This document shows positions 16,568 through 34,780 of a DNA stretch of 43,028 nucleotides, piece after piece. Each line of letters begins with the position of its first letter. Position 1 is the first letter of the stretch. A program made the translations under genes and the position numbers. This DNA is from Mycolicibacterium canariasense (lineage in GTDB: Bacteria > Actinomycetota > Actinomycetes > Mycobacteriales > Mycobacteriaceae): contig NZ_LQOL01000009.1 of NCBI RefSeq assembly GCF_002101555.1, positions 1-43,028 on the forward strand, in the 5' to 3' direction. A model generated the notes under the pieces. That model was not told the origin of the DNA and did not search any database. It saw only the letters and a list, made by a program, of their open reading frames with translations.

Positions 16568-16652
16568 CGGAGACGGCGGGACTCGAACCCGCGGCCGGTT
16601 ACACCGACTACGCCTTAGCAAGGCGCTGCATTCGCCACTCTGCCACGTCTCC
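16568..16652 (-). tRNA. tRNA-Ser(GCT)
   Basis: Acceptor GGAGACG pairs with CGTCTCC, with discriminator G. The anticodon loop reads CTTGCTAAG around GCT, and a long variable arm typical of Ser is present. The T-arm is GCGGG/CCCGC around TTCGAGT. No CCA is encoded. It is the distal (last) tRNA of the array. Confidence 0.95.
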
Positions 16653-16678
16653 AATTTGGCTGCACCGCCGCCATTGCG

Positions 16679-16751
16679 AGCCCCCAGCCGGAATTGAACC
16701 GACGCCTGCGCATTACGAGTGCGCCGCTCTGGCCGACTGAGCTATGGGGGC
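16679..16751 (-). tRNA. tRNA-Thr(CGT)
   Basis: Acceptor GCCCCCA/TGGGGGC, D-arm TAGCTC..., anticodon arm GCGCA-CTCGTAA-TGCGC giving CGT, and T-loop TTCAATT. The discriminator is U, shared with the other two Thr tRNAs of the array. It reads ACG, a codon already readable by the wobbling Thr-TGT species. Confidence 0.93.
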
Positions 16752-16800
16752 ATGCGCGCCTTGCACGCAGCAGCCGACGATCCGGTGCTTGTCTACGTGC

Positions 16801-16992
16801 ATGGCACAAAACAGGTTGTACTCCGTGGTCCAGTCACACGCTCCGTACGACACCCACGTGCTGGTCGGTCACCATCTCGAATACACAGCGGCTAAAGCGC
16901 TGTCGGACCAGCTTAGTGCCGGGACCGTGAGCGTGGTGCCATCGAGCGATTTTCCGGACGACGCGAAAGTCGGTGACACCGTCGAGGTTTGA
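16801..16992 (+). CDS. small hypothetical protein, antisense-oriented to the array
   Basis: 63 aa from ATG at 16801. It reads YDTHVLVGHHLEYTAAKALS then TVSVVPSSDFPDDAKVGDTV, a plausible compact alpha/beta protein. It runs against the tRNAs between Thr(CGT) and Cys. No ribosome-binding site is obvious. The family is unknown. Confidence 0.5.
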   Translation: MAQNRLYSVVQSHAPYDTHVLVGHHLEYTAAKALSDQLSAGTVSVVPSSDFPDDAKVGDTVEV

Positions 16993-17037
16993 ACGCACGT
17001 CCCGCGGAGTCACCGCGGTACCGATACGCGTTGTTGG

Positions 17038-17108
17038 AGTCTCCGACCGGAATCGAACCGGTGTGCGCGGCTTTGCAGACCGCTGCCTCGCCATTCGGCC
17101 ACGGAGAC
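17038..17108 (-). tRNA. tRNA-Cys(GCA)
   Basis: Acceptor GTCTCCG/CGGAGAC with discriminator U, the Cys identity base. The anticodon arm GCGGT-CTGCAAA-GCCGC gives GCA. CCA is encoded at 17035-17037. Confidence 0.95.
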
Positions 17109-17189
17109 ACGTTCGCCGTACCGCTCACGATCGCTGGGCTACTGTCGACGCCTAGCGGCAGACGTCGCCGAGCCGGCGCGGCTGAGCGA

Positions 17190-17393
17190 TCAGTTCGCGC
17201 GCCGGGCCACGTCTTCGAGAATGCGCCAGTCCTGCCCATCAATCGCCCAGCGATCGTGGGCGGTGCGGAACTTGTTCTTGCTCGCATGTTGTGCGGTGCA
17301 ATCCGGACACAGACACCACGCCTGCAACCCATTGCTCGAGCGGTACACGATCTCGCTCGCAGCGCGGGCCTGCGCTTCCGTCACGTGAGACAT
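17190..17393 (-). CDS. small zinc-binding-like hypothetical protein
   Basis: 67 aa, ATG at 17393. A single CxCPDC cluster (AWCLCPDCTAQHASKNKF) with a nearby His suggests a metal knuckle, followed by a charged helix ending ILEDVARRAN. It is the last gene of a minus-strand run (18789 to 17190) of short genes with tiny gaps. The function is unknown; HNH-like or RNA-binding roles are possible but unsupported. Confidence 0.55.
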   Translation of the reverse strand: MSHVTEAQARAASEIVYRSSNGLQAWCLCPDCTAQHASKNKFRTAHDRWAIDGQDWRILEDVARRAN

Positions 17394-17457
17394 CAACTCA
17401 CGGCGTTTCGCTCATCGCAATCATCGCCCGTCGTCTTGGCTGACCATGTGCACATCC

Positions 17458-17745
17458 CTAGCGGGTTCCCAGTGCCGTGCGGCGGCGTCGAATCAGATCC
17501 ATCGACTCGCGGCTCAGGTACCCGATCGGTATCGCTCCCAGCCGAAGCGCGAGTTGCCGTTTCGACTCTGTCACGTCGTAGTGCGCGATCGGTGTGCCGG
17601 GCTTTTGGAACCAGGCGCGTCGGAGACCCAGCTGCGCAGCGAAGGCGTGCAGCTCCTCATCGGTGTCGGCAAGCAGGTGCGACCACACCGCGTTGAGCCG
17701 CCCCACCTGAGCAGGACGTTGCATGTCGTCGACGTAGACCGGCAT
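17458..17745 (-). CDS. DUF4031 domain protein
   Basis: 95 aa. The start VYVDDMQRPAQVGRLNAVWS followed by HAFAAQLGLRRAWFQ and HYDVTESKRQLALRLGA matches DUF4031, a small actinobacterial and phage family. The N-terminal VYVDD and the HYD motif are its hallmarks and may form an active site, but its biochemistry is not established. It sits 4 nt after the 66-aa gene upstream, so it belongs to an operon of short array genes. Confidence 0.8.
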   Translation of the reverse strand: MPVYVDDMQRPAQVGRLNAVWSHLLADTDEELHAFAAQLGLRRAWFQKPGTPIAHYDVTESKRQLALRLGAIPIGYLSRESMDLIRRRRTALGTR

Positions 17746-17749
17746 CGCC

Positions 17750-17950
17750 CTATCTCTCCACCGGTGTCAGTTCATCTGCGCGGTACCAGCGGAACGCATC
17801 GGGCTGGCGCTTGGCCGCGTCAGGGTGATCGGCGTCAGCTTCCAGGTAATGCATGCCGTCGCCGCCGGGACGCGGAGCCACTTGCACGCGATACACCTTG
17901 CGGTTCTTGCCGATTCGCACCAGGTCGTTCTTCTTGAACACAGCGTCCAC
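17750..17950 (-). CDS. small beta-rich hypothetical protein
   Basis: 66 aa from GTG at 17950, 3 nt after the stop of the upstream zinc microprotein. The pattern KKNDLVRIGKNRKVYRVQV, HYLEADA and FRWYRADELTPV suggests an SH3-like small barrel. It lies in the operon with DUF4031. No known family is recognised. Confidence 0.6.
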   Translation of the reverse strand: MDAVFKKNDLVRIGKNRKVYRVQVAPRPGGDGMHYLEADADHPDAAKRQPDAFRWYRADELTPVER

Positions 17951-17953
17951 CTG

Positions 17954-18073
17954 TCAACCTCCCCGGTTCATCGCGGCTGCATTGGCAATGCGGTCGCGGC
18001 AGTTTTCGTCTTTCGGGTTGCCGTTACAGAAGTAGAAGCACCCGCATAGTGGGCACTGCGATTCACCGGCCAC
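17954..18073 (-). CDS. 39-aa zinc-finger-like microprotein
   Basis: GTG at 18073 follows GAGAGGACC, an acceptable ribosome-binding site. The product starts AGESQCPLCGCFYFCNGNP and has five Cys (CPLC...C...C...C), enough for a zinc knuckle, then a short helix DRIANAAAMNRGG. It is tightly linked to the genes on both sides. It was found by reading the intergenic region by eye, and its size makes it easy to miss. Confidence 0.55.
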   Translation of the reverse strand: MAGESQCPLCGCFYFCNGNPKDENCRDRIANAAAMNRGG

Positions 18074-18093
18074 GGGCTGTGGTCCTCTCGGTC

Positions 18094-18444: not shown

Positions 18445-18447
18445 TGG

Positions 18448-19012: not shown

Positions 19013-19243
19013 ATGCAGAGCACCACCGAGAAACTGGCCGAGGCACGGTCTTCGCTACACACCGCAGTAGCCGCCGCCGATGATCGCCACTACCGCCGCC
19101 AGCACGCACACCATGCCGCAACTCTCGCTGCGGACGTGACACTGTCGGCGGACGCTGATGTTGACCAGAGGCGCACAGCGAGTGTGTATCTGGATCAGGC
19201 GGTCGGAATGTGCCGCCAGGCCGGACAGTGCGCTGACCAGTGA
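19013..19243 (+). CDS. small helical hypothetical protein
   Basis: 76 aa. ATG at 19013 is preceded by GCAGGAG 11 nt upstream. The sequence is two or three amphipathic helices rich in Ala, His and Arg (TEKLAEARSSLHTAVAAADD, HHAATLAADV, YLDQAVGMCRQ). It lies 250 nt upstream of the ATPase fusion gene, is in the same direction, and could be its partner, reminiscent of the small helical proteins that accompany ESX ATPases. No WxG motif is present. Confidence 0.45.
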   Translation: MQSTTEKLAEARSSLHTAVAAADDRHYRRQHAHHAATLAADVTLSADADVDQRRTASVYLDQAVGMCRQAGQCADQ

Positions 19244-19490
19244 TGCACACCCCGATGCCGTGCGTTCGTGTCGCGCATTGCACGGTGCCGAGTTCCGTGT
19301 AGCTTTCCCGGCAATCGCCCCGGCCGTGGGGCGGGATCCTCGAAGCGAGACGGGCCGCGACCCCGCACCGCAACGTGGAGGTCAGCCCCCGCAGGGGCAC
19401 ATGGCGAACCCGCCCTGTTCACCGCGGTGTGGCTGGTGGTCGCGGCGCCGGATCCACTCCGCGGACTGCACAGGAGAGGTTTCTTCAACC

Positions 19491-21500
19491 ATGGTTTCTC
19501 ACCGACTCAAGGCCGACGCTCGCGCGTACATGGAACAGCACCCCGGGGTCAGCTACCAGGCAGCGTTGCGTGCTGTCACTGCACACACGCCGACGGGGGA
19601 CGGTTCCGGCGGCAGGCCAGCACAGGAACCGTCCCTCGTCGGCGTGTGCGCAGTAGACCTCTTCGAAGCTCTGGGCATCGAAGACATCGCCACCCACGAT
19701 TTCACCGAGGTGTGGGCACGCAACACGGCAACCGCTTCGCTGCGGGTGCCCTACTGCTATCGGCTCGAAAGCGGCGCAATGAACGCCGCGCTGGAACACC
19801 TCGATCTCACCGACGAGAGTCTGGGCGGAAGTGGTCCGCACCCCGTGCTCCAAGGACGCATCGAGAGTGGCGCAACGCACGCCGAGCTGGAATACCTCGA
19901 TCTCACCGACGAGAGTCTGGGCGGAAACGGTCCGCACGTCGCGATTGAGGGGCGCACCGGAAGCGGGAAGTCACATTTTCTGAGCTCTCTCGTTTTGGGC
20001 CTTGCCGCCACCTATGCGCCCGACACCGTGAGCTTCGTCCTGGCCGACGGTAAGGGCGGCAGCACATTCGAGGGGCTCGACAAGCTGCCACACGTGGTTG
20101 CGGCGGTTTCTCACCTGGAGCACTTCCCGCCGCGTGTCCAGCGCCTCATCGACTTTATCGCGAGCGAGATGGATCGGCGGGCGCAGCTGATCTACACGCA
20201 TTCAAAATGCGAGGACTTTGTCAGCTACACCGAACGGTCCATGCAGCGCGCGGGGTCGGAGTATCCGCGGTTGCCGCACTTGTTCATCGTGGTCGACGAG
20301 TTGCACGCAGCTGCGCGCAGCCACCCGCGCTTGGTGTCAGCACTTGGCCACCTGGCGCGCACCGGGCGGGCGTTGGGGATGCACCTGGTGGTCGGCGACC
20401 AGCCGTCTGACAGGAGGCTGGGCGATGAACTGTCCGAACAGCTGCGCACTCGGATCACGCTGCCGCTTGATGAACCACTACACCGCATACATGCAGAGAC
20501 CGGCGGGACCGGACAGCCGAACAGCATGCTCACGCAGATTTCCTCACGGCTGTCCGCGCTCAGTGACTTCCGCGCGATGGACCAGTACCCGTTGTCTGAC
20601 GAGGCCGCGCAACGCGGACGCATCGGTTTCGTCCGCGCCGAGATTGACTCCCTGATCGGCCAGGACGAGGTCAAAGAGCAGCTGCACGGCATCCTGACCG
20701 ATGCGTCGGCAACCGCGGAACGCGTCCGCCGCGGGTTGCGTGTCTCACCGGTGCGCCCCAACTTCGTCTTCACTGGCGCTCCCGGCACGGGGAAGACCCA
20801 TGCTGCCGAAATCCTGGCAGACACCTTGCACGCCGCCGGGGTCACAGAAACCTCGAAGGTGGTGTTCGCGTACCGCAACACGCTCGTTGGCAGATTCGAG
20901 GGTGAGACTTCGTCGAGAACATCCGCGGTGTTCGACAGTGCGCGCGGGGGTGTTCTCTTCGTCGACAGCGCTTACGAACTGGTCCAGGACCGCGGCGGCA
21001 GCGGCGACCCGTTCGGGCGCGAGGCGGTGGACACGCTCAGTCAGCGGATGCGAGACGGCGGGAACGACCCGGTGGTGGTCCTGTGCGGATACCCCGAGGA
21101 GATGCGGCGTTTCCTGGCACGCGAACAGAGCCTGGCCGGCCTGTTCAGCCGCCATGTCACGTTCACCTCGCCTTCGCCGGCTGAGCTGTGGAAGCACCTG
21201 GTGAAGTTCGCCGAGGATGGCGGCCACGTTCTCAGTAACTCCACCGAGGGTGCGTTCCAGCACATTGTCGAGGAGCTGGGCAAGGACAACGGTTACGGCG
21301 TGCGCCACATCGACCGGCTCGGCAATATCCGTTTCGCTCGCGGTGTGGTCGATGCGGCCGCCGGAATCGCGGCACAGCGGTTCGGACAAGTAGCGGATCT
21401 GTCTGAGCTGACCGACAGCGAACTGTTCACACTCACACGCGACGACATTGTGTGCGCGGCTGAACGCATCGTGGGATCGGCAGGAGTGGCCGTCGAGTGA
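19491..21500 (+). CDS. EccC/FtsK-like ATPase fused to EccA/CbxX-like AAA+ domain
   Basis: 669 aa, ATG at 19491 after AGGAGAGG. Residues about 95-360 form an EccC/FtsK-type P-loop domain: GRTGSGKS at 154-161, VLADGKGGSTFEGLDKLPHV, and Walker B LFIVVDE at 264-270. Residues about 395-650 form an AAA+ domain like EccA/CbxX: LIGQDEVKEQL, GAPGTGKT at 429-436, GGVLFVDSAYEL around 487-498, GYPEEMRRFLARE. In ESX type VII secretion these two ATPases are separate proteins. In this AAA+ Walker B the usual Glu is Ser (DSA instead of DEA), which should impair hydrolysis. An in-frame 96-bp duplication just before the FtsK P-loop leaves a dead copy (GRIESGAT, 122-129). No membrane segment or EsxA/B gene is seen nearby. 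Confidence 0.85.
   Translation: MVSHRLKADARAYMEQHPGVSYQAALRAVTAHTPTGDGSGGRPAQEPSLVGVCAVDLFEALGIEDIATHDFTEVWARNTATASLRVPYCYRLESGAMNAALEHLDLTDESLGGSGPHPVLQGRIESGATHAELEYLDLTDESLGGNGPHVAIEGRTGSGKSHFLSSLVLGLAATYAPDTVSFVLADGKGGSTFEGLDKLPHVVAAVSHLEHFPPRVQRLIDFIASEMDRRAQLIYTHSKCEDFVSYTERSMQRAGSEYPRLPHLFIVVDELHAAARSHPRLVSALGHLARTGRALGMHLVVGDQPSDRRLGDELSEQLRTRITLPLDEPLHRIHAETGGTGQPNSMLTQISSRLSALSDFRAMDQYPLSDEAAQRGRIGFVRAEIDSLIGQDEVKEQLHGILTDASATAERVRRGLRVSPVRPNFVFTGAPGTGKTHAAEILADTLHAAGVTETSKVVFAYRNTLVGRFEGETSSRTSAVFDSARGGVLFVDSAYELVQDRGGSGDPFGREAVDTLSQRMRDGGNDPVVVLCGYPEEMRRFLAREQSLAGLFSRHVTFTSPSPAELWKHLVKFAEDGGHVLSNSTEGAFQHIVEELGKDNGYGVRHIDRLGNIRFARGVVDAAAGIAAQRFGQVADLSELTDSELFTLTRDDIVCAAERIVGSAGVAVE
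19790..19936 (+). repeat. in-frame tandem duplication (96-bp period) inside the ATPase gene
   Basis: A 51-nt stretch at 19790-19840 recurs at 19886-19936 with very few differences, an offset of 96 nt or 32 codons. Both copies encode LDLTDESLGG. After the second copy the live Walker A follows; after the first copy the equivalent codons read GRIESGAT, lacking the Lys. The duplication looks fairly recent at the 5' end of each unit and diverged at the P-loop end. Confidence 0.85.
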
Positions 21501-23093: not shown

Positions 23094-23153
23094 GGCACCG
23101 ATAGTGGCCACGACCGGTCCGATTTCCGTTGCGCGGCGCGGCAGCTGGGTTGG

Positions 23154-23228
23154 GGCGACGAGGGGGAATCGAACCCACCGACCTCCCGGACCACAACCGG
23201 GTGCTCTGCCGTCTGAGCTATCGCCGCC
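23154..23228 (-). tRNA. tRNA-His(GTG)
   Basis: Acceptor GCGGCGA/TCGTCGC, with an extra G at -1 facing C73, the His identity pair. The anticodon arm CCCGG-TTGTGGT-CCGGG gives GTG. CCA is encoded at 23151-23153. Confidence 0.95.
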
Positions 23229-23361
23229 ATGACGGTCCCCGAACAGGGGGACCGTCCGCTGAACGCGCGCCGCCTGTCCGCGACTGCGCGAGCGGAGCCA
23301 CCCGCACCCAGCATCTCAGCTGAGCAGTTCCGCCAGCGGCCGTGAGCCGTGGCGATATGCG

Positions 23362-23449
23362 CGGAGGGCAGGGGGATCGAACCCCTACATGTCTATGCAC
23401 CAACTGTTTTCAAGACAGCGCCCGTCGCCAGCCGTCGGGTGGGCCCTCC
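23362..23449 (-). tRNA. tRNA-Ser(TGA)
   Basis: Acceptor GGAGGGC/GCCCTCC with discriminator G, long variable arm, and anticodon arm CTGT-CTTGAAA-ACAG giving TGA. The D-arm is unusually G/C-rich. Confidence 0.93.
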
Positions 23450-23480
23450 AATGTGACCGGCCCCCGCGGACCGATCCTCG

Positions 23481-23553
23481 TTGCTCCGGCGGGACTCGAA
23501 CCCGCGACTTCCGCGTTATGAGCGCGGGGCTCTGCCAACTGAGCTACGGAGCG
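23481..23553 (-). tRNA. tRNA with CAT anticodon, elongator-like body but C1-A72 mismatch
   Basis: Acceptor CGCTCCG against CGGAGCA: the first pair is C-A, the initiator hallmark. The anticodon stem CCGCG/CGCGG lacks the three consecutive G-C pairs of initiators, and the D-arm is elongator-like (TAGCTCAGTTGGCA). The anticodon loop CTCATAA gives CAT. It could be elongator Met, or Ile2 after lysidine modification. No CCA. Confidence 0.9.
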
Positions 23554-23587
23554 TTGCGGACACCCTCTGCAGAGTGGCCGAAAGTGG

Positions 23588-23661
23588 TTGCGGAGACAGG
23601 ATTCGAACCTGCGACCTCTGGGTTATGGGCCCAGCGAGCTACCAAACTGCTCTACTCCGCG
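23588..23661 (-). tRNA. initiator tRNA-fMet(CAT)
   Basis: C1-A72 mismatch (CGCGGAG/CTCCGCA), anticodon stem CTGGG/CCCAG with the three G-C pairs of initiators, loop CCCATAA, D-arm AGAGCAGTTTGGTAGCTC. CCA is encoded at 23585-23587. Presence of an initiator tRNA in an array is notable. Confidence 0.95.
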
Positions 23662-27369: not shown

Positions 27370-27430
27370 GTCGGTGACCGTAGGCCGGTGGTCGGCACCT
27401 CAGCCGTGCGCGGCGCGGTATCGAAATTTG

Positions 27431-27503
27431 TAGCGCCGACGGGAATCGAACCCGCGCCTCCCGAGGTGAAAACTCGGGTGCCTAGCCATCACAGCACGGC
27501 GCC
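27431..27503 (-). tRNA. tRNA-Glu(TTC)
   Basis: Acceptor GGCGCCG/CGGCGCT (a G1-U72 wobble, shared with the second Glu tRNA), anticodon arm CCGAG-TTTTCAC-CTCGG giving TTC, T-loop TTCGATT. No CCA. Confidence 0.94.
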
Positions 27504-27564
27504 ATGGACGAGACCACGACCGTCGCCGCGACCTCTGGAACCCCGCCAACCCAGCGAGGTGTTG

Positions 27565-27636
27565 CGCGCCCGGCAGGACTCGAACCTGCGCGTAACCGCT
27601 TTGGAGACGGTTGCTCTGCCGCTGAGCTACGGACGC
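27565..27636 (-). tRNA. tRNA-Trp(CCA)
   Basis: Acceptor GCGTCCG/CGGGCGC with discriminator G as expected for Trp, anticodon arm ACCGT-CTCCAAA-GCGGT giving CCA anticodon. No 3' CCA encoded. Confidence 0.94.
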
Positions 27637-27721
27637 TTGCCCCGCGAGCGGGGTGGGTGTCGGAAAGGTGAGGGACGACTGTGCGCCGGGGACCGTCGGT
27701 AGCCCGCTAACGTGGGGCCGC

Positions 27722-28315
27722 ATGGTCACTGTCGACGAGCTGTCTTGTGCCGCCATGGCAGCGCTGTACGCCCCACCGGAGGCCATCACAGAGGCGTCGC
27801 TGCTTTCGTGGCCGGCAAGTCCCGGTCTGTATGCGGTGTTCGGTGCGGATACCGTCTGGCACACGCTGGGACTCGGCGAAGCTCCAGACGCGCGTCCGCT
27901 CTACGCCGGGAAAGCCGAGCGATCGTTGTCCAGCCGAGATGTCGGCACCCACTTCGGTTTCGCCGGCGGGTCAACCAGCATCACCGGCAGCTCGACACTG
28001 CGCCGATCTTTGGCGGCACAACTGCGGTCGACGCTGGGTTTGCGAGGCCGCTACCGTAATCCGTCGATTCCGAAATATGCGTCGAATTACGGGTTATCCG
28101 CCGAGCACGACGAACTTCTCAGCACGTGGATGCGCGCCAACCTGCGCGCAACGTATTGGGTCCACCCCGCAACTGAGGTGCCGCTCGACGCGGTCGAAAC
28201 CGCGGTACTCACAGTGCTGAAGCCACCGCTGAATCTCGACAAAGTCACCCACCGCTGGGGAAAATCGATCCGGGCTGCCAGGGCGGTGATGGCGGCCGAC
28301 TGCCGACAGACCTGA
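27722..28315 (+). CDS. GIY-YIG-like nuclease-fold protein
   Basis: 197 aa, ATG at 27722, 8 nt after TAACGT, so nearly leaderless. PGLYAVFGADTVWHTLG then RPLYAGKAERSLSSRDVGTH follows the GIY...YIG...K...R spacing of the GIY-YIG fold (GLY replacing GIY and YAG replacing YIG). Downstream LRRSLAAQLRSTLGL and ETAVLTVLKPPLNLD (Glu and a P-x-N-x segment) match the catalytic Glu and Asn positions. It runs against the array. It could be a homing-type endonuclease cutting DNA around the tRNAs, or a restriction/repair enzyme. Confidence 0.65.
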   Translation: MVTVDELSCAAMAALYAPPEAITEASLLSWPASPGLYAVFGADTVWHTLGLGEAPDARPLYAGKAERSLSSRDVGTHFGFAGGSTSITGSSTLRRSLAAQLRSTLGLRGRYRNPSIPKYASNYGLSAEHDELLSTWMRANLRATYWVHPATEVPLDAVETAVLTVLKPPLNLDKVTHRWGKSIRAARAVMAADCRQT

Positions 28316-28331
28316 CTTCCTCCGCTGTGCG

Positions 28332-28404
28332 TGCCCCCAGCAGGGATCGAACCTGCGACATTCCGATTAAAAGTCGGAAGCTCTGCCAACTGAGCTATGG
28401 AGGC
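28332..28404 (-). tRNA. tRNA-Lys(TTT)
   Basis: Acceptor GCCTCCA/TGGGGGC, discriminator A, anticodon arm TCCGA-CTTTTAA-TCGGA giving TTT. Starts the dense run of tRNAs at 28.3-29.2 kb. No CCA. Confidence 0.95.
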
Positions 28405-28408
28405 CAAG

Positions 28409-28481
28409 AGCCCACGCCGAGAATCGAACTCGGGACAACCTGCGCCGGAGGCAGGTGCTCTATCCGCTGAGCTACGCGGGC
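28409..28481 (-). tRNA. tRNA-Arg(CCG)
   Basis: Acceptor GCCCGCG/CGTGGGC, anticodon arm CCTGC-CTCCGGC-GCAGG giving CCG; T-loop TTCGATT. Only 4 nt separate it from tRNA-Lys. Discriminator U is unusual for Arg. Confidence 0.94.
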
Positions 28482-28491
28482 ATGCGATCGG

Positions 28492-28567
28492 TCGGGGTGA
28501 CACGATTCGAACGTGCGACTTCCCGCTCCCAAAGCGGGTGCTCTAAACCAAGCTGAGCTACACCCCG
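28492..28567 (-). tRNA. tRNA-Pro(TGG)
   Basis: C1-G72 acceptor (CGGGGTG/CACCCCG) and discriminator A, as for bacterial Pro. Anticodon arm CCCGC-TTTGGGA-GCGGG gives TGG, which with modification can read all four CCN codons. Confidence 0.95.
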
Positions 28568-28598
28568 GTGTGCGCCGTTGAGGCCGGCGCGGTCCTGG

Positions 28599-28679
28599 TC
28601 GCGGTGGCCGGAATTGAACCGACACGTCCGAAGAGACGGCTTTACAGGCCGCTGAGCCCACCACCTGCTCAACACCGCG
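28599..28679 (-). tRNA. tRNA-Tyr(GTA)
   Basis: Acceptor CGCGGTG/CACCGCG, anticodon loop CTGTAAA giving GTA, long variable arm (CTCTTCGGACGTG) typical of bacterial Tyr. CCA encoded at 28596-28598. Confidence 0.93.
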
Positions 28680-28683
28680 CTTG

Positions 28684-28755
28684 TAGTCCCCGAGGGATTC
28701 GAACCCCCGACATCCGCGTTGTAGGCGCGGCGCTCTCCCGCTGAGCTAGAGGACC
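28684..28755 (-). tRNA. tRNA-Val(TAC)
   Basis: Acceptor GGTCCTC/GGGGACT with G1-U72 and one more wobble, discriminator A, anticodon arm CCGCG-CCTACAA-CGCGG giving TAC. Confidence 0.94.
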
Positions 28756-28814
28756 GTTGCCGCCGGACACCGCCGGCCCCCGTGCACAGGGAAAGCGGCG
28801 ATGCCAGCGAGTTG

Positions 28815-28888
28815 CGACCGTGACGGGACTTGAACCCGCGATCTCCGCCGTGACAGGGCGGCGAGGACTCCAGCTCCTCCACACAGCC
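28815..28888 (-). tRNA. tRNA-Asp(GTC)
   Basis: Acceptor GGCTGTG/CACGGTC, discriminator G as for Asp, anticodon arm CCGCC-CTGTCAC-GGCGG giving GTC. The D-arm GAGG-AGCTGGAGT-CCTC and several wobble pairs are unusual, but the fold is complete. Confidence 0.9.
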
Positions 28889-28892
28889 ATGA

Positions 28893-28990
28893 GGTGGTGT
28901 GCGCGGGACTCGAAACCCACACACGGCCCATGACGCGCCCGATTCGACACGCTGCGGACTCGAACCGCGTGCCCGCCTGGACACACCACC
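28893..28990 (-). ncRNA. tRNA-like element with two T-arm-like hairpins
   Basis: A 98-nt segment is closed by GGTGGTGTG pairing with CACACCACC (9 bp). Inside are two motifs resembling T-arms: GCGG-TTCGAGT-CCGC and GGG-TTTCGAGT-CCC (8-nt loop). If the first is an anticodon arm, it gives CGA (Ser) with a very long variable region, but no D-arm can be drawn. It lies 4 nt from tRNA-Ile. It is either a decayed tRNA-Ser, a fusion of two tRNA pieces, or a non-translational tRNA-like RNA. Base pairing was judged by eye. Confidence 0.4.
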
Positions 28991-28994
28991 GTTG

Positions 28995-29068
28995 TGGATC
29001 CCCCGGGAATCGAACCCGGCACCTCCGTCTTATCAGGACGGTGCTCTAACCAACTGAGCTAGGAATCC
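28995..29068 (-). tRNA. tRNA-Ile(GAT)
   Basis: Acceptor GGATTCC/GGGATCC, discriminator A, anticodon arm CCGTC-CTGATAA-GACGG giving GAT, standard D-arm TAGCTCAGTTGGTTAGAGC. Confidence 0.95.
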
Positions 29069-29100
29069 GCGCGCACCGCTGAGCGATTCGCGTGATGACG

Positions 29101-29173
29101 TACCGCGAGAGGGATTCGAACCCCCGACCCCCTGATCCGTAATCAGGCGCTCTCTCCACTGAGCTACCGCGGC
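29101..29173 (-). tRNA. tRNA-Arg(ACG)
   Basis: Acceptor GCCGCGG/TCGCGGT with two wobble ends, discriminator A, anticodon arm CCTGA-TTACGGA-TCAGG giving ACG, which after A34 deamination to inosine reads CGU/CGC/CGA. Confidence 0.95.
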
Positions 29174-29204
29174 GTGACGATCCCCGCAACGGGACCGACG
29201 CACT

Positions 29205-29417: not shown

Positions 29418-29474
29418 AGCCGGCCACCCTGCGCGGGCAACGGTCCCCGGTCGGCACGCGGCGCGTACGGATAC

Positions 29475-30044: not shown

Positions 30045-30067
30045 CACCTCCTCACCTCCCTGTTGTG

Positions 30068-30140
30068 TGGTCCCGGCCGGAATCGAACCGACTTCTCCTG
30101 GGCTTCAACCGGGCGCTTGAACCATGTCAGCTTCGGGACC
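30068..30140 (-). tRNA. tRNA-Phe(GAA)
   Basis: Acceptor GGTCCCG/CGGGACC, discriminator A, anticodon loop TTGAAGC giving GAA. The anticodon stem CCCGG/CCAGG has a C-A mismatch at the middle pair (29-41), and the D-arm AAGCTGACATGGTTCAAGC is irregular, hinting at relaxed selection. Confidence 0.9.
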
Positions 30141-30143
30141 ATC

Positions 30144-30632
30144 TCACACCCTTACACGCGGGTGCAGGCGCAGGTGAGCATCGACAGCGACCATCACCTC
30201 ACGGGTCACGCCGTGGCGCTCGTGCAGTTCCGGTACCAGTACCCGGCCGGACGTAACTGCTGGCAGGCACGCGTCATGCTCGCCGACCACATCGTCGAGT
30301 ACCACGGCACGTTTGATCCGAGGATGCGCCTGCAGGTAGCGCAGCGCGCCGCGCACTTTCAGGCTGTGCCCGAAGCTGACCCGGTTCTCGTCGTGGCGAA
30401 CCCATGGCAGCCCGTGCGGGAGGCCGAACCACTCGGCGTAGTCGTCGGCCTGGTCGTTCCAGGTGGTGTTCCACACCAGCGCGACGCCGCGATCATGCAG
30501 CGTGCACAGCCAGTCGACGACCTCGGTCACCGCGTGGATCGGATACCCGACTGTGCGGGTGCTCAGTGTCCAACCCGGTGCGGAGTCGGTGACATTCAGC
30601 GTGCCGTCGATGTCGAGAAACACGGCGTCCAT
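30144..30632 (-). CDS. HAD-superfamily phosphatase-like protein
   Basis: 162 aa. MDAVFLDIDGTLNVTDSAPG carries the HAD motif I DxDGT. Motif II is in ALVWNTTWND, and motif IV is RAVVLDDVVGEHDA with the acidic pair. Such small HAD domains without a cap occur in phage and bacterial RNA-repair proteins (polynucleotide 3'-phosphatase, 'Swiss Army Knife' HAD domains). It lies 4 nt upstream of tRNA-Phe and next to a second HAD gene. A tRNA end-repair function is an inference from context and fold. Confidence 0.65.
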   Translation of the reverse strand: MDAVFLDIDGTLNVTDSAPGWTLSTRTVGYPIHAVTEVVDWLCTLHDRGVALVWNTTWNDQADDYAEWFGLPHGLPWVRHDENRVSFGHSLKVRGALRYLQAHPRIKRAVVLDDVVGEHDACLPAVTSGRVLVPELHERHGVTREVMVAVDAHLRLHPRVRV

Positions 30633-30663
30633 GCCGTGGGACTGTAACTGGGTCGGATCGATG

Positions 30664-31239
30664 CTACGGATGTGGCGCGTACTGGGCGATCCATTCGCGG
30701 ATCACGCGCACATCGCGGGGAATCAGCCCCTGTGCCGGGTGCGGACGCACGAACGTAGTGGGCGCGGTACGCGACTTGCGCCAGCTCTCCGAGAGCATGT
30801 CGACTGACAGCGCGTCCTCGGTCCACAGAAGTGCTGCATCGCCGGGGACCGCCGCCTTGGCGACGGCAACCTTCCAGGGGCCCGATACCATCCGCTCACG
30901 CGCATCCAGCCCGTCTGCAGCATCGGCGGCGAGGACGTTCTCGTCGAACCACGGGATCTCCGGCAGCCCGTCCAGGATCGGCGGCAGCTGCCGGGTGTGT
31001 TCACGCCACGTCGATAACCACTGCACCGCCACACCGGCGTCGACAGCCGCGGCAACGGTCTCGACGACCGTCGCCGACCACAGCAGTGGGAGCTTCACCG
31101 GCTTGCCGTGACGGTCACGGTCCCCTTCGGGGTGGTCGATGGTCGCGGATCGCCAGTCCGGCCAGAAGCTTCGCCCGCCGCGCTTGGACAGCGCGTTGAT
31201 CACGCCGTCGAAGTCGAGCAACCACATCGGCGTTGTCAC
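30664..31239 (-). CDS. HAD-superfamily protein resembling RNA-repair HAD domains
   Basis: 191 aa. MTTPMWLLDFDGVINALSKR has motif I LDFDGVIN. VAVQWLSTWREHTRQL is motif II with the STW-x-x-x-A/T pattern common in HAD_SAK-type proteins. ALLWTEDALSVDM gives the motif IV acids. GLIPRDVRVIREWI closes the domain. This order and the W-rich motif II are typical of the HAD domain found in RNA-repair ('SAK') proteins. It forms a pair with the downstream HAD gene, although the two are diverged. Confidence 0.65.
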   Translation of the reverse strand: MTTPMWLLDFDGVINALSKRGGRSFWPDWRSATIDHPEGDRDRHGKPVKLPLLWSATVVETVAAAVDAGVAVQWLSTWREHTRQLPPILDGLPEIPWFDENVLAADAADGLDARERMVSGPWKVAVAKAAVPGDAALLWTEDALSVDMLSESWRKSRTAPTTFVRPHPAQGLIPRDVRVIREWIAQYAPHP

Positions 31240-31250
31240 GGTGTCAGCCC

Positions 31251-31487
31251 CTATTCCAGTGCGGTGAGTTCCGATTCAGCGTGCCGCTTCGAGATTGTGT
31301 CGCCCCACCGTCCTGCGATGTCCCAACGCACATCGCAGGAATATCCATAGCCGCTGATCCCGTTGTGGCGCACCTGATGCGACACCGTGCCGGCCGTCTC
31401 GCCGGGGACGAAGTACCGCCGCAGCGAGACAGGTACGTGGGCGGCGTCGGCGATCGTGACTCGCGCGCCTACTTTCCACCGTCCCAC
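31251..31487 (-). CDS. small beta-barrel-like hypothetical protein
   Basis: 78 aa. GTG at 31487 was chosen because GGGAGG lies just upstream and the recurrent promoter motif ends 30 nt before it; ATG at 31508 would give a very short leader. WKVGARVTIADAAHVP, GETAGTVSHQ, GYGYSCDVRWDIAG suggests an SH3/KOW-type small barrel. Downstream are the two HAD genes, so it may head that operon. Confidence 0.6.
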   Translation of the reverse strand: MGRWKVGARVTIADAAHVPVSLRRYFVPGETAGTVSHQVRHNGISGYGYSCDVRWDIAGRWGDTISKRHAESELTALE

Positions 31488-31517
31488 CGAACCTCCCTCA
31501 AGCAGCACATGTGCGAA

Positions 31518-31535
31518 TCTCTAAAGTAGAGAATA
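31518..31535 (-). promoter_or_regulatory. recurrent TATTCTC promoter/operator motif, copy 2
   Basis: Minus strand TATTCTCTACTTTAGAGA, 30 nt before GTG 31487. It contains the perfect palindrome TCTCTA-N3-TAGAGA overlapping a TATTCT -10 box. Confidence 0.65.
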
Positions 31536-31551
31536 GCAGGGCGGTGTCGAG

Positions 31552-31622
31552 TGAAAGGGGCGGGAGTTGAACCCGCGTGCAGCTGGCGTCCCAGCCGGCA
31601 GACCGTCTATGCCAACCCTCTC
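31552..31622 (-). ncRNA. tRNA-like element with a 4-nt anticodon loop
   Basis: Acceptor GAGAGGG/CCCTTTC with A73, D-arm GGCA-TAGACGGTC-TGCC and T-arm GCGGG-TTCAACT-CCCGC are all intact. The anticodon arm is GCTGG-GACG-CCAGC, a perfect 5-bp stem with only 4 loop nucleotides instead of 7, so no standard anticodon. An alternative pairing gives a 6-nt loop TGGGAC (Pro-like GGG) but breaks the D-stem. Total 71 nt. Only the anticodon arm is abnormal, so it could be charged or processed yet not decode: a decoy or sensor, or a simple 3-nt deletion mutant. Confidence 0.55.
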
Positions 31623-31650
31623 AGTGCTGTCGCCTCGGCGGGCTTCAACG

Positions 31651-31721
31651 TAGTCCGTGCGGGAATCGAACCCGCGCAACGGGTCTGAGAAACCCGCGGC
31701 CTGCCACTAACCGAACGGACC
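31651..31721 (-). tRNA. tRNA-Glu(CTC)
   Basis: Acceptor GGTCCGT/ACGGACT with G1-U72, anticodon arm CGGGT-TTCTCAG-ACCCG giving CTC, T-loop TTCGATT. Short D-arm, 71 nt. Confidence 0.93.
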
Positions 31722-31725
31722 AAGA

Positions 31726-31786
31726 TGGGGTTTGAGTGTGACCCGCAGCGGGCCAAGTCTCCACTGCGGGTAACACTCAAACCCCA
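31726..31786 (-). terminator. long hairpin between HNH gene and tRNA-Glu
   Basis: 31726-31748 pairs with 31764-31786: 23-bp arms with one mismatch and a 15-nt loop. There is no T-run, so it is not a classical Rho-independent terminator. It lies just downstream of the HNH stop and 5 nt upstream of the tRNA-Glu 5' end, so it could instead be an RNase III-type processing site, a transcription pause, or a recombination/replication structure. Confidence 0.6.
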
Positions 31787-31788
31787 GG

Positions 31789-32247
31789 TCACACACCCTT
31801 GGGTCGGTACGGCTGCCAAAGCAGCCGCATCCCCGCCTCCTCCGGCGTCCGGTCGGCCTTGCTCCAGTTGCATGGCCCGCAGGCGGCCACCAGGTTGAAC
31901 CAGGTGTCACCACCACCGCGGGAACGTGGCAGCACGTGATCGTAGGTGTCAGCCCGACTGCCGCAGTAGGCGCAGGTGTGCTTGTCGCGGGCCAGGATGT
32001 CAGCGCGAGCGGCGTGCTCGGTGTCGCGCCGGTACGGCACGTGCACGTATCGCGCCAGCATCAGCGACCGCGGAACCTCGATCGCGACCGAGGGGGACCG
32101 CACCAGCCGCGGCGGAACGTGGGTCTCCAGCACGAACGCCGCCTCACGCAGGATCATGCTCACGGCGTCCTGCCAGGAGATGGTGCCGTGATCGGAGTAG
32201 TCGGCGTTGAACACCTGCACGGCAGGTGCGGGCAGCAATGTGGTCAT
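31789..32247 (-). CDS. HNH endonuclease
   Basis: 152 aa; ATG at 32247 follows AGGAGGTG, so the longer upstream frame, which runs through a tRNA gene, is rejected. The C-terminal domain has HTCAYCGSRADTYDHVLPRS, then GGGDTWFNLVAACGPCNWSK: CxxC, DHxxP with the catalytic His, Asn in NLV, and the second CxxC, the standard HNH zinc-ribbon nuclease of mycobacteria (PF01844 type). The N-terminal 70 residues include an SMILREAAFVLET helix. It likely cleaves DNA, as a homing-type nuclease of the array or in defence. The long hairpin follows directly. Confidence 0.85.
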   Translation of the reverse strand: MTTLLPAPAVQVFNADYSDHGTISWQDAVSMILREAAFVLETHVPPRLVRSPSVAIEVPRSLMLARYVHVPYRRDTEHAARADILARDKHTCAYCGSRADTYDHVLPRSRGGGDTWFNLVAACGPCNWSKADRTPEEAGMRLLWQPYRPKGV

Positions 32248-32306
32248 GGCGCCGCACCTCCTTTCGGTGTCGTGGTCGGGCCAAGGTGGCGCGGGTGCGC
32301 CGGAAG

Positions 32307-32379
32307 TGGAGACTGGGAGATTCGAACTCCCGACATCCTGCTTGCAAAGCAGGCGCTCTACCGACTGAGCTAAGCCCCC
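32307..32379 (-). tRNA. tRNA-Ala(TGC)
   Basis: Acceptor GGGGGCT/AGTCTCC includes the G3-U70 wobble, the Ala identity element. Anticodon arm CCTGC-TTTGCAA-GCAGG gives TGC. Discriminator A. Confidence 0.96.
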
Positions 32380-32390
32380 GAGATGGTGCG

Positions 32391-32463
32391 CTGGCCCGGA
32401 AGGACTCGAACCTTCAACGGCGCGATTAACAGTCGCGTGCTCTGCCAATTAAGCTACGGGCCA
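32391..32463 (-). tRNA. tRNA-Asn(GTT)
   Basis: T1-A72 acceptor (TGGCCCG/CGGGCCA) with discriminator G as in bacterial Asn, anticodon arm CGCGA-CTGTTAA-TCGCG giving GTT. Confidence 0.95.
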
Positions 32464-32480
32464 ATGTGTTTTGATCTGCG

Positions 32481-32554
32481 TACCCCTCCCCGGATTCGAA
32501 CCGGGAACCTTCGGAACCTAAACCCGACGCCTCTACCAGTTGGGCCAGAGGGGC
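32481..32554 (-). tRNA. tRNA with TAG anticodon (Leu) on a short-variable-arm body
   Basis: Acceptor GCCCCTC/GAGGGGT, A73, anticodon arm TCGGG-TTTAGGT-TCCGA giving TAG (reads CUA/CUG, Leu), T-arm CCCGG-TTCGAAT-CCGGG. The variable region is only 5 nt (AGGTT), whereas bacterial Leu tRNAs are class II with a long arm. The charging identity is therefore uncertain. Confidence 0.85.
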
Positions 32555-32558
32555 ATGG

Positions 32559-32631
32559 TGCGGACGGCGGGGATCGAGCCCGCGGCCTTCGCGTTGGCAA
32601 CGAGACGCGCTACCGGCTGCGCCACATCCAC
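32559..32631 (-). tRNA. tRNA-Gly(GCC)
   Basis: Acceptor GTGGATG/CGTCCGC with two wobbles, anticodon loop TTGCCAA giving GCC, CCA encoded at 32556-32558, 1 nt from the next tRNA. Two oddities: a T-C mismatch in the anticodon stem (29-41), and T-loop CTCGATC with C instead of T at position 54. Confidence 0.88.
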
Positions 32632-32778
32632 GTAGACCCGCGACTTTCGGCCAGCTGCAGTCTGACTTGCCCGGCACAGATTCACTCATCCGCCAACGGT
32701 CCCCGCGCGGGCAGGGCGACGCCGGGTCTGACGGTTCCACGCCCCGCTCGCGCAGCGGATGGTCACCGACAACCGTGG

Positions 32779-32850
32779 AGCCACCGTCGGGGGTTGAACC
32801 CGAGGCCTCCGCCTTACCAAGGCGGCGCTCTGCCACTGAGCTACGGCGGC
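32779..32850 (-). tRNA. tRNA-Thr(GGT)
   Basis: Acceptor GCCGCCG/CGGTGGC, discriminator U, CCA encoded at 32776-32778, anticodon arm CCGCC-TTGGTAA-GGCGG giving GGT. Confidence 0.95.
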
Positions 32851-32872
32851 GACGCACCGATGGGTGCGGGGG

Positions 32873-32949
32873 AGCCCCGAGCCGGATTCGAACCGGCGGC
32901 GGACACCGCTTACAAGGCGGCCGCTCTGGCCGGGCTGAGCTACCGGGGC
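32873..32949 (-). tRNA. tRNA-Thr(TGT)
   Basis: Acceptor GCCCCGG/TCGGGGC, discriminator U, anticodon arm GCCGC-CTTGTAA-GCGGT giving TGT. Slightly enlarged D-loop, 77 nt. Confidence 0.92.
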
Positions 32950-32952
32950 GTG

Positions 32953-33129
32953 CTATCCCGCCTCGCGGCGGGTGCGGATACGTTCGACGCGCTGATCGTC
33001 GGTGGGCGCTACCCAGCCGTGGTACCCCGCTGAGTCGTCCCATTCGAGGGCATGGGTGCGCTGTTCGCGGCCGCACCAACGGCAGCCGTTCGGCGGCGGC
33101 GGTGCCGTCGTGGGTGCGGCATCAGGCAT
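32953..33129 (-). CDS. 58-aa CxxC microprotein
   Basis: ATG at 33129 overlaps the end of the upstream gene by 8 nt. The product reads GCRWCGREQRTHALEWDDSA then GYHGWVAPTDDQRVERIRTRR. A single CRWCG knuckle plus His and an Arg-rich tail suggest nucleic-acid binding, as in many small phage proteins. The frame was deduced by eye, since longer frames on the same strand are shadows. Confidence 0.6.
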   Translation of the reverse strand: MPDAAPTTAPPPPNGCRWCGREQRTHALEWDDSAGYHGWVAPTDDQRVERIRTRREAG

Positions 33130-33298
33130 GTGCGACCCGCTGGCCGGCCGGCCAGAACTTGTCGACGGGGATGATCAACGTCGTGCCGCCGGCGCCGATG
33201 TCCTCGCGCCGGAACCAGTAACGGCGCTGGCCTTCCATCTGAGCCCCATACCCAAGGGCGATACGGGCTCCCTGGTAGACCCACTTTTCACGCGCCAT
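33122..33298 (-). CDS. small hypothetical protein
   Basis: 58 aa, ATG at 33298, 10 nt after the upstream stop. AREKWVYQGARIALGYGAQM then RRYWFRREDIGAGGTTLIIP is a strand-rich pattern of a compact barrel. It is coupled to the CxxC microprotein downstream. No family is recognised. Confidence 0.6.
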   Translation of the reverse strand: MAREKWVYQGARIALGYGAQMEGQRRYWFRREDIGAGGTTLIIPVDKFWPAGQRVAHA

Positions 33299-33308
33299 CG
33301 CCAGCAGC

Positions 33309-33623
33309 TTAATCGGTACTGGCGCTGACGTGGACGGTGCAGTCATAGGCCGTCTCCAGCTTGGACTTCCACACCTGAGCCAGTGAACTGAGCGCCGCTG
33401 ATTCAGGGTGGAACAGCGAGTACGACAGGACCAGCGTCTTCGACGGCCAGGACACCGTCTCGGTGGGCTCGGTGCGCGCGAACAGCACGTCATCACCCAT
33501 ATCGGCGGCCACCTCGCGGCACAGGGACTCGAGGTGGGAGCGATCTTCGGCTGTCGGGCGGCTGTCTGCGCCGCGGTAGGTGCCGTAGCGCAACGTGACG
33601 CACAGCTTCAAGTTCATCGACAT
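33309..33623 (-). CDS. hypothetical protein heading a damage-type promoter operon
   Basis: 104 aa, ATG at 33623 with AAGGA upstream. LKLCVTLRYGTYRGADSRPT, HLESLCREVAADMGDDVLFA and LVLSYSLFHPESAALSSLAQ give an alpha/beta fold I do not recognise. Its promoter (33669-33691) closely fits the mycobacterial RecA-NDp/PafBC consensus. Two small genes follow on the same strand. Confidence 0.6.
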   Translation of the reverse strand: MSMNLKLCVTLRYGTYRGADSRPTAEDRSHLESLCREVAADMGDDVLFARTEPTETVSWPSKTLVLSYSLFHPESAALSSLAQVWKSKLETAYDCTVHVSASTD

Positions 33624-33656
33624 GGTGAGTGTCCTTACTCCCTGGAGGCGATCAAT

Positions 33657-33674
33657 TCCCTAAAACAGAGAATA
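33657..33674 (-). promoter_or_regulatory. recurrent TATTCTC promoter/operator motif, copy 3
   Basis: Minus strand TATTCTCTGTTTTAGGGA, 33 nt before the ATG at 33623; its TATTCT is the -10 box of the RecA-NDp-like promoter. Confidence 0.65.
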
Positions 33675-33691
33675 GACGCCGTTGCCGACAA
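33669..33691 (-). promoter_or_regulatory. RecA-NDp (PafBC-type) DNA-damage promoter candidate
   Basis: Minus strand TTGTCGGCA, 8 nt, TATTCT. The known consensus is TTGTCRGTG-N8-TANNNT: seven of nine upstream positions and the spacing match exactly. Confidence 0.6.
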
Positions 33692-33737
33692 GTAGTCCGA
33701 GCAGGTTCGACACGCCGGACGGGGTCCGGTGAACGGG

Positions 33738-33810
33738 CTGCCCAGAGAGGATTCGAACCTCTACCGGCCTGATCCAGAATCAGGTGTCCTGCCAGTTAGA
33801 CCACCGGGCA
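33738..33810 (-). tRNA. tRNA-Gln(CTG)
   Basis: T1-A72 acceptor (TGCCCGG/CTGGGCA), discriminator G as in Gln, anticodon arm CCTGA-TTCTGGA-TCAGG giving CTG. Confidence 0.95.
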
Positions 33811-33838
33811 ATGGGCGCGTGTACAGTCCGCGGACTTG

Positions 33839-33910
33839 CTGCCTCGCCAGGGTTCGAACCTGAACCGGGCGAACCAAAACCGCCGGTGCTGCCAGTTACA
33901 CCACGAGGCA
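33839..33910 (-). tRNA. tRNA-Gln(TTG)
   Basis: Acceptor TGCCTCG/CGAGGCA, discriminator G, anticodon arm GGCGG-TTTTGGT-TCGCC giving TTG. Together with Gln(CTG) it covers both Gln codons. Confidence 0.95.
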
Positions 33911-33915
33911 ATGCG

Positions 33916-34000
33916 TGGCCCCCGCGGGAATCGAACCCGCACTCTCGGTGTGAGAACCGCGGTTTGAGCGCGGCGCGGCTGCCAGTTACGCCAGAGGGCC
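33916..34000 (-). tRNA. tRNA-Leu(CAA)
   Basis: Acceptor GGCCCTC/GGGGGCC, A73, anticodon arm CCGCG-CTCAAAC-CGCGG giving CAA, long variable arm (TTCTCACACCGAGAGT) as normal for Leu, in contrast to the TAG tRNA at 32481. Confidence 0.94.
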
Positions 34001-34057
34001 GTTGTTCGTCGAGCGCGATCGACGGAAACGATCTGCAGTGCGCGCCGCGCGCAGTGG

Positions 34058-34130
34058 AGCGGATGACGGGCATCGAACCCGCGACATCGACCTTGGAAGG
34101 GTCGCGCTCTACCAGCTGAGCTACATCCGC
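34058..34130 (-). tRNA. tRNA-Gly(TCC)
   Basis: Acceptor GCGGATG/CATCCGC, discriminator U (Gly identity), CCA encoded at 34055-34057, anticodon arm CGACC-CTTCCAA-GGTCG giving TCC. Confidence 0.95.
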
Positions 34131-34238
34131 AAAGCCCCGGATCCGTGTCCGACGGGGCCACTCGGTGTGATGTGGCACGGCATTAGGGCGCTACCGCCGT
34201 GCGGGCGCCCCGCGATCGGCGTAGTCGAGAAAGCCGTG

Positions 34239-34664
34239 TCAGTGTGGCGACGCGTCCTGTATGCGCAGCGCATGCCGCCGCAGTTCATCGGCATTCTGAA
34301 ACCAGATCACGCCCGGCAGAGCAGATCCGATCTCACCAAGCTCGACGCGCACGGCGGTGTCATCGAGATGCCCGGTGAAGCCGACCAGCGGGCGATCCAC
34401 AGGCACTGATCCAACCGTGCCCACGCCCGCCGCGATGACCGGCAGGAACCGCTTGTGCTGGCCAAGTCTCGACGTTGCGGCCTGAAGGCAGTCGTCGCAG
34501 ATGTTGAGCACCAACTCCTCACCGTCGAAACTGTCCCAGAACGTCGACCCGTAGTGCCCGCTGGTGCGGAACTCGGTGCCGCCGTACGGCTGGTTGTCGA
34601 CATCGGCGAAGGCGTTGTGCAGAGATGTGGCGCAGACGAAGCAGGGCAGTGCATATTCGCTCAT
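34239..34664 (-). CDS. hypothetical protein with paired CxxC motifs
   Basis: 141 aa; ATG at 34664 (MSEYALPCFVCATSL) was preferred to the longer frame. CFVC near the N-terminus and CDDC in VLNICDDCLQAATSRL form a likely zinc site. Between them is YGGTEFRTSGHYGSTFWDSF. The C-terminal half is alpha/beta. This two-knuckle layout is common among small actinophage proteins of unknown role. It is the first protein gene downstream of the promoter-proximal tRNA. Confidence 0.6.
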   Translation of the reverse strand: MSEYALPCFVCATSLHNAFADVDNQPYGGTEFRTSGHYGSTFWDSFDGEELVLNICDDCLQAATSRLGQHKRFLPVIAAGVGTVGSVPVDRPLVGFTGHLDDTAVRVELGEIGSALPGVIWFQNADELRRHALRIQDASPH

Positions 34665-34707
34665 ACCCGGAACAAGCCGGCTTGGTCGGCTGGGTGTCAA
34701 AACGGGG

Positions 34708-34780
34708 TGCGCCGCGAGGGGATCGAACCCCCGGCCCGCTGATTAAGAGTCAGCTGCTCTACCGACTGAGCTAGCGGCGC
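34708..34780 (-). tRNA. tRNA-Lys(CTT)
   Basis: Acceptor GCGCCGC/GCGGCGC, A73, anticodon arm GCTGA-CTCTTAA-TCAGC giving CTT. It is the promoter-proximal tRNA of the array. Confidence 0.95.

Follow-up and report, generated by a model that had tools for sequence, protein, structure and literature searches.

Clusters of transfer RNA (tRNA) genes in mycobacteria were described in 2018 as 'tRNA array units', of which 367 were counted in 7,670 genomes; M. austroafricanum is among the hosts, and the array types of mycobacteria were reported to include the 20 isotypes (PMC5966550). Arrays on giant linear plasmids of M. avium have been called putative antidefence (PMC12803027). In jumbo phages, tRNAs are supplemented by RNA ligases and by standalone Swiss-army-knife HADs that clear terminal phosphates, united in one RNA-repair theme (Iyer et al. 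2021, PMC7824862), and on a megaplasmid of Anabaena PCC 7120 the 26-tRNA trn operon is repressed by TrcR, as is the RNA ligase gene rtcB, and is induced under translational stress (PMC10272220). Here we analyse a 43,028-nucleotide stretch of Mycolicibacterium canariasense (contig NZ_LQOL01000009.1 of assembly GCF_002101555.1, C9 below; 'the window' denotes this whole stretch, which is the entire 43-kb contig), in which a large tRNA array encloses two HAD-fold genes. We propose, with a probability of about 0.5, that this accessory array and its nested HAD-fold genes keep translation running for a mobile element when host tRNAs are cut and depleted by host defences or toxins.

Between positions 16567 and 34781, ARAGORN called 31 tRNA genes, every one of them minus-strand, and 29 of these passed the gathering score of the Rfam model RF00005. 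The original prediction of some 30 minus-strand tRNA genes representing every amino acid was thereby borne out, all 20 amino acids being covered even without the two genes below the cut-off. One of the latter, tRNA-Ser(UGA) at 23361-23449, received only a tRNA-Sec-like score (37.1 bits against a cut-off of 47), and the other, with a 'ggga' anticodon in an 8-base loop, reached only 20.4 bits, below the cut-off, with the transfer-messenger RNA (tmRNA) model and is also present in an M. austroafricanum locus (L092). The second of two tRNA-Met genes (23585-23661) has, as read by eye, a C1-A72 mismatch and GGG/CCC anticodon-stem pairs, the hallmarks of initiator tRNAs, so that the predicted initiator was found as well. 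This gene and tRNA-Val(UAC) (28683-28755) carry C33 instead of the nearly universal U33. Gene density is 1.7 per kb over the whole span and 3.3 per kb in the core (27430-34781, 24 genes in 7.35 kb). An array unit as described in PMC5966550 has at least 20 tRNA genes per region and at least 2 per kb, and is redundant with and divergent from the housekeeping set; the window has 31 (ARAGORN) or 29 (Rfam) genes, its core exceeds that density, the whole span falls below it, and both redundancy and divergence were observed. The array itself is therefore of an already known kind, as had been anticipated. The further claim that a complete set with an initiator is unusual did not hold, given the 20 isotypes of the described mycobacterial array types (PMC5966550) and the two CAT tRNAs also found on plasmid pCBMA213_1.

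The source genome (6.76 Mb, 113 contigs) gave 75 RF00005 matches, 29 of them inside the window. Outside it, ARAGORN found 46 tRNA genes in 31 stretches, with 43 different anticodons for all 20 amino acids, and every one of the 29 distinct three-base array anticodons also occurs among these 46 genes. Identity between an array tRNA and its closest host tRNA of the same anticodon ranged, by global alignment, from 0.56 for Leu(TAG) to 0.91 for Ala(TGC) and the initiator Met. The array is a second tRNA set, redundant and for the most part diverged, and not a housekeeping one, because the 46 other genes cover each of its three-base anticodons. The covariance scoring and host comparison by which the original prediction was to be judged thus both went in its favor.

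Nested in the core, between tRNA-Phe and tRNA-Glu, lie two protein genes, P0001 and P0002 (Table 1). By its sequence, P0001 encodes a clear member of the 'Swiss Army Knife RNA repair' family: it scores above the gathering threshold of PF18143 (HAD_SAK_2; 36.4 against 27.5 bits), its predicted model has a HAD fold (predicted local distance difference test score, pLDDT, of 86.9), and an acidic DxD and Lys/Asp positions are invariant across 12 sequences. P0002 is, by its predicted model (pLDDT 91.1), a HAD-fold protein only; in VIA-align the model matched HAD phosphatases, with the T4 Pnkp phosphatase among many tied rows. A 3'-phosphatase role of the two proteins is predicted on the basis of the HAD fold and the conserved acidic and Lys positions.

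Isoacceptor order was compared with that of other arrays and judged against 1,000 shuffles. The window shares the order of 28 of 32 genes with pCBMA213_1 of Mycolicibacterium sp. CBMA213 (PMC5966550; shuffle maximum 12), of 18 of 26 with a Tsukamurella plasmid (maximum 10) and of 28 of 28 with a stretch of M. austroafricanum DSM 44191 (maximum 12), and was no better than shuffles against M. chimaera, M. avium pS2b, M. alvei and three Micrococcales arrays. Plasmid pCBMA213_1 also has an HNH gene between Glu(CTC) and Ala(TGC) and one HAD at the corresponding place, whereas the window has two HADs, a GIY-YIG gene (none is annotated there) and longer insertions between tRNA genes. Ser and Thr tRNA genes occupy an edge position in the pCBMA213_1 array too, as do Ser, Thr and Cys together in the Tsukamurella array. 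The DSM 44191 contig NZ_HG964460.1 (C11) is 96-100% identical to and collinear with window positions 13296-42953 and contains both HAD genes; relative to the window, it has additional DNA of about 1.7 kb separating the Ala from the Asn tRNA gene, of about 1.35 kb close to position 35705 and, as an insertion near 38138, of 18 kb (C11:151631-169874). DNA consisting mostly of that insertion (L117) has 56.6% G+C. To the left of window position 13296, no match of at least 200 bases was found in C11:1-40000 and 91139-181637. The M. avium pS2b type likewise has a full extra set that duplicates the chromosomal one, a single HNH gene and a suggested antidefence role (PMC12803027), but its order agrees in only 7 of 27 genes, no better than shuffled, and no HAD was found there. 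Redundancy with the host set, the near-identical copy with a different left flank in DSM 44191 and the common order on pCBMA213_1 agree with the portable block that had been proposed, and support the accessory status and likely mobility of the array.

HAD genes recur in such arrays. Five tblastn queries (P0001, P0002 and HADs of Pseudarthrobacter, Curtobacterium and Bifidobacterium) against 72,556 plasmid records matched 12 distinct plasmids, in 10 of which the HAD lies within a tRNA array (26-40 tRNA genes per fetched stretch), a count to which shared descent contributes because four of the five queries are themselves array HADs. The two exceptions, a Glaciihabitans plasmid and B. longum p1, have no tRNA within 10 kb of the HAD; an RNA ligase gene lies about 10 kb away in the former and elsewhere on the plasmid in the latter. 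The Tsukamurella plasmid carries two HADs and pCBMA213_1 one between tRNA-Phe and tRNA-Glu, as in the window. A HAD profile scan was positive in 13 of 19 array loci, which include two near-identical pairs and seven positives fetched through the HAD itself, and in one (Glaciihabitans) of 13 other loci whose tRNA content was only partly scanned. Eleven array plasmids from the first 25 rows of a DNA-similarity list of 1,045 records comprised six with a HAD and five without, a choice partly guided by the words 'HAD domain' in the list and leaving out the actinobacterial rows H24, H26, H32 and H37. P0002 matched four of 401 genomes of the family, within arrays in the source genome and G515 and outside arrays in G524 and G408; PF18143 matched 132 of 397 genomes of the order. 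The PF18143 family is not array-specific, yet it is repeatedly found in arrays. No relative of P0001 was found in phage records (P0002 was not searched there), and neither HAD was found in viral contigs. Near the arrays of four Micrococcaceae plasmids (L035, L069, L070 and L071) we also observed secY in three, accompanied by secG and dut in two, and a Fic-family gene in two.

RNA ligase genes form a further recurrent association. The array of Curtobacterium MCBD17_040 contains, near the HAD, an RNA ligase gene (PF21189 and PF09414), and genes 87-88% identical to it lie inside the arrays of two further Curtobacterium plasmids. Relatives occur elsewhere on four Micrococcaceae array plasmids, those of YJN-5, zg-Y1110, A. 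caoxuetaonis and P. chlorophenolicus A6 (79% of the query), and about 1 kb from the array of B. breve pMP7017; the other array plasmids were absent among the best 30 of 38 RNA ligase matches. In genome G515 a PF09414 match lies about 172 kb from the array on one 4.9-Mb contig.

In the source genome the candidate ligase is on another contig, C85 (33.7 kb); the gene encodes 357 residues that include a WGR domain, an ATP-dependent ligase domain and a KYDG motif. Among plasmids, the three top matches were in Tsukamurella plasmid 13, M. alvei pJCM12272 and M. avium p1-JPH1, and the one on pJCM12272 is separated from the array by about 1.6 kb. A second tmRNA gene is also on C85 (71 bits; the other tmRNA of the genome, on C72, scored 137 bits), as are PPE, SLT and DUF3987 genes. 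About 3 kb separate this second tmRNA (L087:12142-12541), which has a long predicted tag, from the WGR-ligase gene. Over its first 15.6 kb, a stretch that includes the tmRNA and the start of the ligase gene, C85 aligns at 94-99% identity to C11:75-25287 of DSM 44191, and the DSM 44191 array is on the same contig (P0002 relative at 141138-141710). C11 carries both C85-like DNA and the array, and through it the WGR-ligase gene can tentatively be tied to the array; C9 and C85 are putatively one replicon in the source strain.

The pathway that we propose would begin with entry or induction of the element in a cell whose anticodon nuclease is active. Long minus-strand transcripts would then span the array and the HAD genes, as the observed three-base spacing between P0001 and tRNA-Phe may suggest, and the array tRNAs would stand in for the cut host tRNAs. 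As computed, strict wobble would allow them to read 47 of 61 sense codons (81.8% of the codons in open reading frames, ORFs, of the element) and extended wobble, with U34 reading four-codon boxes, 57 of 61 (99.1%). The HADs would clear terminal phosphates on cut tRNAs, the predicted C85 WGR-ligase would reseal host and array tRNAs alike, and the second tmRNA is predicted to release stalled ribosomes. Replacement combined with repair fits best because the set is nearly self-sufficient and is accompanied by repair-type genes; of the two purposes named in the original prediction, replacement of cut host tRNAs stays the best reading and gains strength from the nested repair-type genes, which that prediction had not noticed, and the small test described below gave no support to codon supply.

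More broadly, and more tentatively, with odds that we put a little short of even, actinobacterial megaplasmids may carry a portable translation-insurance kit, in which one replicon combines a complete array, nested end-healing phosphatases of the Swiss-army-knife HAD type, an ATP-dependent RNA ligase and an additional tmRNA, as a plasmid counterpart of jumbo-phage RNA repair. Jumbo-phage sets resemble the element in combining tRNAs, standalone Swiss-army-knife HADs and RNA ligases under a counter-defence theme (PMC7824862), but the genes described here belong to a tRNA array, and the element that carries it is bacterial and resembles a plasmid. The Anabaena operon similarly joins a stress-induced megaplasmid array to an RNA ligase gene through a common repressor, but is cyanobacterial and involves RtcB rather than a HAD and a WGR ligase, with rtcB separate under its own promoter (PMC10272220). 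B. breve pMP7017 shares a transcribed array with its own tmRNA and the nearby ligase gene; in contrast, 17 of its 20 tRNA genes, serving 12 amino acids, are highly transcribed and the array was read as codon supply (PMC10832533), no HAD was found near it, and the term 'RNA ligase' is absent from the main text of that paper.

Several observations weigh against the proposed replacement and repair. P0002 falls below the PF18143 gathering score (18.7 against 27.5 bits), enzymes with a HAD fold have many different substrates, and the match to T4 Pnkp ties with unrelated phosphatases. No HAD was found in six of the 19 array loci (M. chimaera MC045 and AH16, TY66, M. avium pS2b, M. alvei and B. breve pMP7017); in genome contigs, one of six P0002-type places was in an array and five were outside, and 28 of the best 30 PF18143 places fetched in the order had no tRNA gene in their 3.4-kb loci. 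The C85 ligase is matched better by the DNA ligase domain (PF01068, E 1e-15) than by RNA_ligase, for which it reaches 26.5 bits as an ORF against a cut-off of 27, and 28.9 bits in a six-frame search; no RtcB match was found in the source genome. The DSM 44191 ligase gene, unlike that of the source strain, has an interruption of about 9 kb and is truncated where the contig ends, and the rest of C85 (15.6-33.7 kb) has a single 0.5-kb match in the fetched parts of C11. Finally, 18 of 30 array tRNAs, those for Cys and Trp included, keep the host loop outside the anticodon, so that many of them may be cut like those of the host.

These unchanged loops also count against an explanation in which the array tRNAs are themselves nuclease-proof, with loop changes that escape host anticodon nucleases, as predicted for cluster C1 mycobacteriophages, and the HADs incidental. 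It draws on the other 12 of the 30, whose loops, leaving the anticodon itself aside, differ from those of every same-anticodon host tRNA (the changes include C33, seen in the initiator and in Val(UAC)), and on the presence of such changes in all 10 targeted mycobacteriophage tRNAs (PMC10264068); we consider it unlikely. That the array serves the codon needs of the element, as the authors read the high transcription of the pMP7017 genes (PMC10832533), appears decidedly improbable here: codons matched by the array showed no enrichment relative to host genes (their log2 ratio averaged 0.32, that of the remaining codons 0.69; Mann-Whitney p 0.19, for 12 element ORFs picked by hand and nine host ORFs from one 20-kb stretch), and the heavily used codons CTG, GCC, GCG, GTG and GTC have no exact array match. 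The least probable explanation, in our estimate, is selfish persistence, in which homing-type nucleases and recombination maintain a patchwork of tRNAs that benefits neither the cell nor the element. HNH and GIY-YIG genes do lie inside the array, the most widespread array gene is an endonuclease, often HNH, and a study cited in PMC5966550 found no apparent phenotype on deletion of an array from a carrier, whereas deletion of the Anabaena array was reported to reduce antibiotic resistance (PMC10272220). Moreover, 29 of the 31 genes still score as tRNAs, every amino acid is retained, and order is conserved with two plasmids although the parts that align, 30-36% of the core, share only about 75% identity; the persistence of scores, coverage and order despite this divergence argues for selection.

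The repair-type genes nested in the array seem to be unreported as its cargo. The phrases 'RNA ligase' and 'RNA repair' are absent from the main text of PMC5966550 and PMC12803027. In literature searches that left most subscription journals and bioRxiv outside, only work on the Anabaena trn operon joined a tRNA array, a plasmid and RNA repair, and none joined plasmid tRNAs, Swiss army knife, RNA ligase and actinobacteria; 'tRNA array' was not joined with RNA ligase or tRNA repair among the matches listed. The nested repair-type genes would turn 'putative antidefence' into a testable pathway, with cut tRNA ends as substrate, two HADs and one ligase as enzymes and resealed tRNAs as readout, and repair, if true, would explain the carriage of whole tRNA sets rather than of a few chosen tRNAs.

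Table 1 Features of the M. canariasense window, by position
Feature	Coordinates	Strand	Evidence
Tyrosine recombinase beside array	14039..15175	+	PF00589 E 9e-9
Outlying tRNA genes Ser(GCT), Thr(CGT), Cys(GCA)	16567..17108	-	ARAGORN, RF00005
FtsK/SpoIIIE and AAA ATPase, between outlying tRNA genes	19158..21500	+	PF01580 E 8e-26, PF00004 E 3e-12
tRNA His(GTG), Ser(TGA), Met(CAT, elongator-type D stem), initiator Met(CAT)	23151..23661	-	ARAGORN, RF00005; Ser(TGA) below Rfam tRNA cut-off
Core array, first block: Glu, Trp, Lys, Arg, Pro, Tyr, Val, Asp, Ile, Arg	27430..29173	-	ARAGORN, RF00005
GIY-YIG nuclease gene, inside array	27653..28315	+	PF20815 E 4e-13
tRNA-Phe(GAA)	30067..30140	-	ARAGORN; starts three bases past end of HAD gene 30144-30632
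HAD_SAK_2 phosphatase-like gene P0001, 162 aa	30144..30632	-	PF18143 E 8e-9
Second HAD-fold gene P0002, 191 aa	30664..31239	-	Sub-threshold PF18143; structure model
Doubtful tRNA-like gene, 8-base anticodon loop (ggga)	31551..31622	-	ARAGORN, Rfam
tRNA-Glu(CTC)	31650..31721	-	ARAGORN, RF00005
HNH endonuclease	31789..32448	-	PF14279 E 8e-11
Core array, last block: Ala, Asn, Leu, Gly, Thr, Thr, Gln, Gln, Leu, Gly, Lys	32306..34781	-	ARAGORN, RF00005

The true start of the HNH gene is probably further in than listed, because the 5' part of the ORF overlaps tRNA genes. Of the intact recombinase pair said to border the array, the tyrosine recombinase was confirmed, and the adjoining ORF (15178-16170) had no Pfam match; the toxin-antitoxin genes said to surround it correspond to AbiEi and Phd/YefM matches that exist but lie below the cut-off. 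Between tRNA genes, a repetitive-looking ORF of 798 residues (23698-26094, minus strand) had no Pfam or PHROG match. Overlapping minus-strand frames at 3302-4817 encode a weakly matching integrase C-terminal domain and N-terminal SAM-like domains and look like a decayed tyrosine recombinase. At 41116-42767, an XRE/ImmA-type gene (RmrA-like, E 3e-27) followed by a PDC-S70-like gene (E 5e-17) forms a candidate defence or regulator pair.

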